Position numbers and translations under genes: made by a program. Shown here one piece after another: positions 6,332-27,507 of a stretch of DNA of 47,901 nt (its first letter is position 1; the number at the start of each line of letters is the position of its first letter). This DNA is from Bacillota bacterium (GTDB lineage Bacteria; Bacillota; Clostridia; Acetivibrionales; DTU013). Location: the NCBI GenBank assembly GCA_029778665.1, contig JAKOPX010000002.1, positions 1-47,901 on the forward strand. The letters run 5' to 3'. The notes under the pieces were generated by a model. That model searched no databases. It was not told where the DNA came from and was given only the letters and a program-made list of their open reading frames with translations.

Positions 6332-6472
6332 CCACAAAAAAAATACAGCGCGGTACAGGCATCCGGGCCAAAGATGAACCGTAACAGCATCCCGCCTGAT
6401 GGATGAACCGTGACGACCTCCGGCCCTGGTACTGGTATCGGATATTTAAATCCAAAACACCGCCTGATTTCA

Positions 6473-6708
6473 CAAAAGCCGTGCAGGCGGCCGATCTGCA
6501 TTTGGGATTGCTTCGTTAACAGCTGCAAGCCGGCTCATCCGCTCCAATGAGGGCGCTGGTCACTCGCCGTCCATGGCTCGGGACCAGCGCCGGCAGCGTC
6601 CGTGCTGCCGGTTGTGGTTCCTGGCGCCTCATTCGAGCTGCATGAGCCGGATGCAGCTGTAAAACTCGCAGCCCATCAATGCGTGATCGGTCACCTGCAC
6701 GGCTTTTG
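6473..6708. repeat. Dispersed long-hairpin element, copy 1
   Basis: The two ends are a perfect 15-bp inverted repeat (CAAAAGCCGTGCAGG at 6473-6487 with its complement at 6694-6708). Moving inward, further paired blocks are CCGATC/GATCGG, CAGCTGCA/TGCAGCTG, CCGGCTCAT/ATGAGCCGG and GCTC-AATGAGG/CCTCATT-GAGC, so nearly the whole 236 bp folds back on itself. The inner core carries two short hairpins: GCGCTGGTC/GACCAGCGC with a 20-base loop, and CCGGCAGC/GCTGCCGG. A second copy with an almost identical core but different arms is at 27272-27507. The element lies between the broken murA and the sigma-factor promoter. It carries no believable gene. It could be a mobile palindromic element or a structured RNA. 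Confidence 0.85.
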
Positions 6709-6723
6709 CCTGAATCCTTATGC

Positions 6724-6815
6724 ATCCGGGTGGATCAGTCAGCATGCCCGATACCCGGGCCGACTGCCGCTTCGTACTCTTATTTGTGCCCGAAAAGTAA
6801 CGCACCCACCCGGAT
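6724..6815. repeat. 10-bp inverted repeat bracketing the murA break
   Basis: ATCCGGGTGG at 6724-6733 is exactly complementary to CCACCCGGAT at 6806-6815. The right arm is the murA codons for Tyr-Pro-Gly-Gly just before the catalytic cysteine; the left arm lies about 15 bases from the end of hairpin-element copy 1. The 72 bases between the arms have no similarity to murA. It may mark a rearrangement end, or be chance. Confidence 0.55.
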
Positions 6816-7149
6816 AGCTAATAGTCACACAGCCGCACCTGGCAAGCATCGGGCCCATGAAAATGATCGAGGAACGCATCTCAGCCGCCAGTTCGACAGG
6901 GATCCTGGTCTCGTTCAGCCCTGCCGAATTCACGATTATCACATCGTCCTCGATTTTCACGCTGCAGCCTATCTTCCGTAGTATACTGATCATAATTTCG
7001 ACATCTCTTATCCTGGGACAGTTTTTGATGACGCTTTCGCCGGCGTTAAGCAAAGATGCTGCCAAAATCGGCAATACGGCATTTTTGGAGCCTTCGATCC
7101 CAATCTCGCCCTGGAGCCTGGCGCCTCCTGTAATAACCAACCTGCTCAT
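6739..7149 (-). pseudogene. murA: Truncated UDP-N-acetylglucosamine 1-carboxyvinyltransferase (murA remnant)
   Basis: From the ATG at 7149 (GAGGTG six bases upstream) the frame encodes a good MurA N-terminus: GSKNAVLPILAA with the substrate-binding K22-N23, and LARCGCVTISYPGGC ending at the active-site cysteine C116. Homology stops there. Twenty unrelated residues follow to a stop at 6739, giving 136 residues against roughly 420 for the family, so most of the fold is missing and the product cannot be active. No MurA C-terminal sequence was found in any frame down to the sigma gene. The gene follows ftsW by 49 bases, its usual dcw neighbourhood. A palindromic element begins about 30 bases beyond the stop. 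A functional murA must exist elsewhere, or the break is an assembly join. Confidence 0.85.
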
Positions 7150-7198
7150 AAAAACACCTCGCACACATTTCATCTTATGCGTTAAATTTACAATATGT

Positions 7199-8305
7199 TC
7201 AGATTCTTTCATATGAAGAGTAGCGCGAGATGTTGAGCAGTATGCCCGCTTCTGTCATAAAGAGGACAAGGGCCGTGCCGCCGGCACTGAAGAAGGGCAA
7301 TGACACGCCCGTAGGCGGTACGGAATTCGTGACGACCGCCACGTTGAAAAGACTCTGGACGGCGATCAGCGCGGTAATGCCTGAAGCTATCAGGCACCCG
7401 TAAACATCAGGCGCATGGACCGCTATTTTGATCCCCCTCCAGATAAATATGAGAAACAGCAACATAACCAGTAATGCTCCGATGAAACCCAGTTCCTCGG
7501 CAATAATCGGAAAAATATAGTCGTTATGCGGTTCAGGAACATACAGAAACTTCTGCATGCTCTGCCCCAGGCCTCTTCCAAACAGCCCACCGGAGGCGAT
7601 GGCATACAGGGACTGAATGGTCTGATAACCGCTGCCGCGCGGATCGCTCCACGGGTCGATCCAGGAATTTATTCGCGGAGTCATGTAATCGGTAAATGAA
7701 ATGACGGCTATGATCATTACGACGACGGGCACGAACAATATCGCAAAATGCCTGATTTTTGCGCCTGCCACGAACAATATTATCATGGCTATGGAAATCA
7801 TGATTATAGTTGCGCTCAGATGTGTTTCCAGCAGAAGAAGCACACATATGATGCCAAGAGCAAAAAGGTACGGCATCAGGTCTCTGAAAAACGAGTCAAG
7901 CGGTCTCTTCCTCCTGGACAGATTGTATGAAAAGAACAGTATAAGCGCCAGTTTGGCCAGCTCGGACGGCTGGAACCGGACACCGGCTATCACGACCCAT
8001 CTCCGGGAATCGTTCGCTTCACTGCCGATACCCGGGATCAAAACGAGTATGAGAAGGACAACGCTTACCAAAAACAACGCCCATACTGTTTTCCTGCCTA
8101 TCTTGTGATAGTCGTAATTTGCCGCAAGCATCATGGAGACCATGCCGATGGCGGCAAAGACCAACTGCCTTTTAATATAATAGTATATGTTCCCTGTCTC
8201 TTTTTCAGCCATTGGGGCACTTGCGCTGAAAACCATGATAAGTCCCAGCGAAAGCAGTATCAGTACAGTTATGAACAAAATAAAATCAAACGGCTTCTTT
8301 TTCAT
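7199..8305 (-). CDS. ftsW: SEDS-family glycan polymerase, FtsW/SpoVE type
   Basis: This 368-residue polytopic membrane protein starts with a short cytoplasmic tail and has about ten membrane segments. SEDS hallmarks are FQPSELAKLALILFFSYNL, the large extracellular loop with GSGYQTIQSLYAIASGGLFGRGLG, PEPHNDYIFPIIAEELGFIGA, and the last segment VPPTGVSLPFFSAGGTALV. Members polymerise lipid II into glycan with a partner class B penicillin-binding protein; the SpoVD/FtsI-like enzyme in the same cluster is the likely partner. FtsW and its sporulation paralogue SpoVE cannot be separated from sequence alone; the dcw position allows either. The ATG at 8305 has AGAGGG six bases upstream and lies 11 bases after mraY. 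No murD lies between them, unlike many Firmicute clusters. Confidence 0.9.
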   Translation of the reverse strand: MKKKPFDFILFITVLILLSLGLIMVFSASAPMAEKETGNIYYYIKRQLVFAAIGMVSMMLAANYDYHKIGRKTVWALFLVSVVLLILVLIPGIGSEANDSRRWVVIAGVRFQPSELAKLALILFFSYNLSRRKRPLDSFFRDLMPYLFALGIICVLLLLETHLSATIIMISIAMIILFVAGAKIRHFAILFVPVVVMIIAVISFTDYMTPRINSWIDPWSDPRGSGYQTIQSLYAIASGGLFGRGLGQSMQKFLYVPEPHNDYIFPIIAEELGFIGALLVMLLFLIFIWRGIKIAVHAPDVYGCLIASGITALIAVQSLFNVAVVTNSVPPTGVSLPFFSAGGTALVLFMTEAGILLNISRYSSYERI

Positions 8306-27271: not shown

Positions 27272-27507
27272 GCCGCGTAGCAGGTACGGGCAGCAGGGCA
27301 TTTGAGGATGCTTCGTGTACGGCTGCATGCCGGATCATTTGCTCCAATGAGGGCGCAGGTCACTCGCCGTCCATGGCTCGGGACCAGCGCCGGCAGCATC
27401 CATGCTGCCGGTTGCGGTGCCTGTTGCCTCATTCGAGCTGCATGCCCCGGCGGCATCCGTAACACTTGCATCCAATAATGCCTTGCTGCCCGTACCTGCT
27501 ACGCGGC
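27272..27507. repeat. Dispersed long-hairpin element, copy 2
   Basis: The ends are a perfect 24-bp inverted repeat (27272-27295 with 27484-27507), followed inward by GGCATT/AATGCC, GGATGC/GCATCC, ATGCCG/CGGCAT and GCTC-AATGAGG/CCTCATT-GAGC. The core from about 27341 to 27445 is nearly identical to copy 1 (about 6541-6645), including the 20-base loop with CCATGG. The stem CCGGCAGCA/TGCTGCCGG has A-T where copy 1 has G-T, so pairing is kept. The outer arms share no sequence with copy 1. It fills most of the gap between the ABC operon and the decarboxylase. The rest of the gap (27508-27575) shows no gene or U-tract terminator, so the hairpin may end the ABC transcript. Confidence 0.85.

Follow-up and report, generated by a model that had tools for sequence, protein, structure and literature searches.

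The two long hairpins of the window, by which we mean the whole analysed stretch of 47,901 nucleotides, are probably old, fixed copies of a mobile TwoAYGGAY fold-back element with a putative CsrA-decoy centre and arms kept matched by DNA copying; this explanation accounts best for the observed family, dispersal, folding, loop form, co-occurrence and arm change spectrum. Such an element would lack a gene of its own and would have been mobilised as DNA, its ends probably being acted upon in trans by a transposase; insertion would leave target duplications of about 9 bp, as seen in a relative (genome G038) and presumed for the window. The minus-strand RNA, where transcribed, would present two side-by-side C-ANGGAN-G hairpins predicted to fit both sites of the CsrA/RsmA dimer, and the long arms would form the stalk holding both hairpins as well as the element ends. 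The arms appear to drift in sequence yet to stay paired, mainly through DNA-level copying of one arm from its partner, putatively by template switching during replication or during the production of a new copy, and only the inner stem, the tandem-GA loop and the hexaloops would be held by single-strand selection. The loop sequence suggests that every copy is able to serve as a small decoy for CsrA, a role that we hold to be slightly more doubtful than credible.

Both copies lie where the initial annotation had placed them, at 6473–6708 (copy 1, 236 nt) and 27272–27507 (copy 2), and all their features refer to the minus strand, the putative RNA 5' end of copy 1 being near 6708. Copy 1 folds at -152.3 kcal/mol, as compared to a mean of -92.3 kcal/mol for dinucleotide shuffles (z -13.1), and copy 2 at -163.7 versus -98.5 kcal/mol (z -13.5); none of the 200 shuffles made of each copy folded as well. 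BLAST recovers the shared core at about 90% identity over 119 bp, and the outer arms, unrelated in sequence between the copies, are self-complementary over exactly the perfect terminal 15 bp (copy 1) and 24 bp (copy 2) described before. The variable arms of copy 1, delimited by sequence, fold and a mate-swap test (see below), extend over 6473–6531 on the RNA 3' side, with the terminal 15 bp pairing with 6694–6708, and over 6650–6708 on the RNA 5' side. Near-invariant alignment columns mark one side of a conserved inner internal loop of the tandem-GA type (GAAGCA on the RNA strand) at 6508–6518, with its partner at 6662–6670. The TwoAYGGAY core of copy 1, consisting of two adjacent hairpins, occupies 6554–6611 (Rfam RF01731, 38.5 bits, E 1e-4; 1.4e-4 in a whole-genome search) and comprises the hexaloops C-ACGGAC-G (6598–6603) and C-AUGGAC-G (6569–6574), assigned from the sequence and a loop census. 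Copy 2 matches the full RF01731 model (1–168) at 27320–27461, likewise with 38.5 bits, and its sequence contains the hexaloops C-AUGGAU-G (27398–27403) and C-AUGGAC-G (27369–27374). A G-T to A-T change, initially taken to preserve pairing within the CCGGCAGC stem, is not in the stem; it corresponds to the two Y positions of the AYGGAY hexaloop, which on the minus strand changes from ACGGAC to AUGGAU. Each of the four loop variants is represented in the loop census. Copy 1 is flanked by a gene for an ECF sigma factor and by a 157-aa EPSP-synthase/MurA-like fragment, and copy 2 by genes for an ABC permease and an Orn/Lys/Arg decarboxylase. The 157-aa ORF (6739–7212, minus strand) matches an EPSP-synthase/MurA-type enzyme over its first quarter only and adjoins an FtsW/RodA gene, and a tandem pair of near-copies of GATGAACCGTRACRRC is found at 6372–6430, just beside copy 1.

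The hairpins had been thought to fit no named family, but a permissive Rfam search places their minus strand in TwoAYGGAY, an RNA motif described in 2010 (Weinberg et al. 2010, PMC2864571) and without an assigned function since then. The model matches the minus strand only. At gathering scores, the Rfam search of the window returned no match; both copies, at 38.5 bits, fall below the cut-off of 43 bits. BLAST homologues of the core in G006, a genome of the same bacterial family, score 43.5 and 48.3 bits, above the cut-off, and two further copies in that genome reach 56–57 bits. Because these clearly homologous copies score 43.5–57 bits, the lower score of the window copies is attributable to divergence, and they are filed as divergent relatives of TwoAYGGAY rather than as curated members. 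They share with the motif the adjacent AYGGAY hairpins, a paired stalk, a tandem-GA internal loop and the occurrence in Clostridia; tandem GAs are noted for TwoAYGGAY in PMC4333381, and the own-genus alignment contains the stalk with its tandem-GA loop below both hairpins. In contrast to the 168-nt model, the arms extend the element to 236 nt in the window and to as much as 757 nt in relatives.

Searching with the core, as the initial annotation had suggested, retrieved by BLAST about nine copies in the window's genome (G000, 84% complete) and 4–13 matches in each of four congeners. Matches to RF01731 occur in 35 of 393 genomes of the class, many of them with seven or more scored copies; named relatives carrying the family are Clostridia MAGs (Hungateiclostridiaceae UBA3922/UBA3934, Clostridiaceae AS22ysBPME). 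Owing to arm length, the elements range from about 125 to 757 nt, with 24 of 89 measuring at least 300 nt. No match to the element was found in the plasmid and phage collections searched.

Insertion with target duplications was observed in the relative G038, whose single contig of 3.1 Mb contains seven copies of 284–285 bp with the common ends CTKYRATTCGTAATAT ... ATATTACGAATYGHAG, the terminal 16 bp being common to all as terminal inverted repeats. Exact direct repeats of 8–10 bp (ATCATATAA, ATGGAATGG, ATCCATAA, TTTTGCAT and GTACATAAAA) flank five of the seven copies, and joined flanks match uninterrupted sites in two congeners, G064 (97%) and G399; the empty G064 site corresponding to copy L155 holds a single ATCATATAA. 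At another G038 site, both congeners also carry the element, which would be expected if the insertion were older. Exact or 8-of-9 bp flanking repeats are also present in G390 (four copies), G029, G197 and G389, the count of flanking repeats being a lower bound since the hairpin-based search for boundaries misses the true G038 ends, which are set off by an internal gap. Among the 24 copies of the window and its own genus, none has flanking direct repeats, conserved ends are absent and the arm ends differ from copy to copy; for this reason, we infer rather than observe mobility in the branch to which the window belongs. Both window copies are missing from the orthologous intergenic positions of G001, whereas G002 is occupied there; loss from G001 may account for this. 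Four G038 loci (L200, L201, L202, L205) show a further fold-back lying within the element (397 bp), as well as derivatives of 134 and 108 bp that lack the core and retain the same ends, some of them with 8–9 bp flanking repeats. Two opposite-orientation copies in G004 (L013 on C42 and L034 on C57) have a common outer flank, as if inverted or as if their arms had recombined, and a copy in G001 (L015, C154) has the direct repeat TGTTTTACGAGTAAGTG outside its arms, beside an N-run and possibly as a scaffolding artefact.

The G038 copies resemble bacterial MITEs in being short and non-coding, with terminal inverted repeats, target duplications of 8–10 bp and empty sites in congeners. Insertion polymorphism, a further MITE feature, is seen in the G038 copies and, if loss is set aside, in the window copies with respect to G001. 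In the usual MITE, however, the ends are conserved, whereas the present element has variable ends and a centre conserved across bacterial families, and a scan of G038 for the end motif detected no autonomous transposase with matching ends. An IS-sized pair of ends in that genome (2801554–2803073) was considered as the partner transposon and rejected, as it encloses host genes and no transposase. Transposition would presumably proceed in trans.

The centre of the element resembles a double binding site for CsrA. With GGA and a paired stem as the sole selection criteria, 176 loops were obtained; most are ANGGAN, and 165 are closed by C-G. Judged by its sequence, C-ANGGAN-G is the form of the CsrA/RsmA hexaloop. 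The presence of at least two GGA motifs in C-G-closed hexaloops, a feature of CsrA-sequestering RNAs, was found here as well, in pairs suited to the dimer as in the sRNAs CsrB/C and RsmX/Y/Z. Unlike these sRNAs, the element has two sites per copy, occurs as several dispersed mobile copies, and its transcription and CsrA binding are putative. Binding of TwoAYGGAY to CsrA was proposed in 2015 (PMC4333381), and we found no test of the proposal in the passages on the motif. CsrA is encoded in 32 of the 35 carrier genomes as compared to 102 of 358 others (Fisher 2e-13), or in all 24 carrier genera as compared to 57 of 195 other genera. The CsrA-less carriers among the 35 are the window's genome (84% complete), G161, whose congeners have CsrA, and G285, which is 98% complete, has one element match and lacks both CsrA and flagellin. 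Searches for CsrA and FliW gave no match in the element carriers G000 (84% complete), G001 (94%) and G005 (87%); CsrA is present in the window's congeners G002, G003 and G004. Since flagellin, present in 34 of the 35 carriers, is associated with the element as strongly as CsrA, and since all CsrA genomes also have flagellin, the link to CsrA is inseparable from motility as a lifestyle confounder; among genomes with flagellin, CsrA has no significant effect (p 0.36).

The arms behave differently from the centre. Changes on both sides keep the pairing at 35 of 68 consensus pairs, which agrees with the initial picture of a dispersed family whose folded centre is conserved and whose arms co-vary, and outer pairs in the own-genus alignment show up to five standard pair types. 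When the arms of 28 copies were exchanged, 5' arms paired with their own 3' arms at a mean of -52.5 kcal/mol and with those of other copies at -31.3 kcal/mol, the own partner ranking first of 28 in 17 copies. Matching double changes exceed the independent expectation about 6–20 fold in every genome except the low-divergence G038, which has too few changes for this excess to be judged, and 36–54% of them (about 45%) are of the transversion type; indels are often common to both arms. In an RNA helix under selection, G-U pairs are normally accepted and A-C mismatches are not. On the RNA strand, 405 single changes lead to G-U and 433 to A-C (pairwise changes summed over eight genomes, counted over all ordered copy pairs, which are not independent, and hence given without p-value), and there is no consistent G-U excess at any distance from the element centre. 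Pairwise changes were used because raw within-copy counts of G-U and A-C include fixed internal-loop mismatches. The many transversions, the shared indels and the fact that G-U is no commoner than A-C argue for DNA-level copying between the arms as the better explanation of their pairing, so that the arms would be kept matched mainly through template switching rather than through selection on the RNA strand. Some RNA-level constraint on the arms may exist, as the RNAalifold consensus has a mild minus-strand G-U excess of about 2:1, the method favouring the strand that is folded. The inner tandem-GA loop and the hexaloops are nearly invariant in the own-genus alignment and do look selected as single-strand structures on the minus strand; the initial interpretation of conserved structure with changed sequence as selection on folding is retained for this inner part and doubtful for the arms. 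Stem changes that are concordant, and preserve pairing without passing through G-U, are known from template switching in RNA genes (PMC8794818); that study used ancestral reconstruction of RNA gene histories, whereas the present case is a mobile fold-back element for which pairwise changes only were used. Two loci, L026 (G003:C12) and L047 (G002:C40), have tandem repeats of arm sequence (units of about 25–45 bp) beyond the element, in which every unit has kept its complementarity to the opposite arm.

An improbable alternative is that the copies are resident sRNA genes, i. e., an ordinary multi-copy CsrA-sequestering sRNA of the RsmX/Y/Z type whose arms are kept by selection on the RNA fold. 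The fit of the hexaloops to CsrA, the near-exclusive occurrence in CsrA genera, the strong covariation and the earlier proposal in PMC4333381 all agree with it, as does a consensus fold that is far better on the minus strand (-87 versus -59 kcal/mol). It is contradicted by the G038 insertions with their target duplications and empty sites, by arms of up to about 370 bp in G276/G351, far beyond the needs of a sponge, by pairwise changes without a strand-specific G-U excess, and by the surroundings of the copies, where tests for promoters, terminators and U-runs gave no signal and promoters are not enriched. Still less probable is a pure DNA repeat of the REP/BIME type, a cruciform or single-stranded DNA bound at its loops by a transposase or nucleoid protein, with the likeness to CsrA sites being coincidental. 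The intergenic position and random orientation of the copies, their mobility, arms without strand bias, and the presence of the element where CsrA was not found would suit such a repeat; coincidence accounts poorly, however, for two loops that both match the CsrA hexaloop including the C-G closing pair, and for a family that tracks CsrA-encoding, flagellate genera. Mobilisation by Y1/RAYT enzymes is not known to leave a 9-bp duplication, and the coreless 134-bp derivatives with target duplications suggest that the core is dispensable for movement, although these derivatives may instead have arisen by recurrent deletion between GCGTAGG direct repeats. A cis-regulatory leader or terminator of the flanking genes, compatible with the end of copy 2 about 40 bp before the Orn/Lys/Arg decarboxylase start, the minus-strand UUUU at the end of the copy 1 outer stem and the Rfam type Cis-reg of RF01731, is very improbable and was rejected, given random orientation to neighbouring genes (++24, --24, +-20, -+17 at 93 other loci) and no excess of U-runs (3.74 versus 3.81).

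Orientation is also random among the intergenic copies of the own genus (++6, --7, +-7, -+2); these counts, like those at the other loci, derive from simple ORF calling without a gene finder, and single cases may be wrong. The initial remark that the hairpins have the same orientation between minus-strand genes is correct for copies 1 and 2 and does not extend to the family.

As regards the mobile fold-back element favoured here, the TwoAYGGAY family and the proposal of CsrA binding in 2015 (PMC4333381) were already known. What is new, as far as the passages on TwoAYGGAY in the literature go, is its mobility, together with the signature of arm copying and a quantified association with CsrA and flagellate genomes; these passages do not mention mobility or target duplications. 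Insertion of TwoAYGGAY into DNA with target duplications changes the choice of meaningful experiments, and with the association with CsrA and flagella seen across genomes, the 2015 proposal becomes directly testable in isolates whose genomes are complete. The arms provide a natural case in which pronounced covariation of base pairs does not have to reflect selection for an RNA fold, a point of relevance to the calling of structured RNAs; if TwoAYGGAY arms are indeed copied as DNA, the usual covariation evidence for RNA structure in them would be largely copying-derived. Extended to TwoAYGGAY overall, the reading would be that the motif is not an ordinary family of RNA genes and that its mobile fold-back elements spread a two-site CsrA-binding module in flagellate Clostridia, with arms that rewrite each other, so that covariation would largely reflect DNA copying and the ends would be free to change; this generalisation is tentative and, as a whole, rather unlikely.

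Several genomes contain opposite-orientation pairs of elements 0.1–1.3 kb apart (L071 in G006:C136, G005:C51, L087 in G181:C2 and L045 in G002:C5). TwoAYGGAY copies furthermore adjoin a 6S RNA gene in G064 (L104, 1177–1360, minus strand) and a CRISPR array in G082 (L091, 2031–2798, minus strand).
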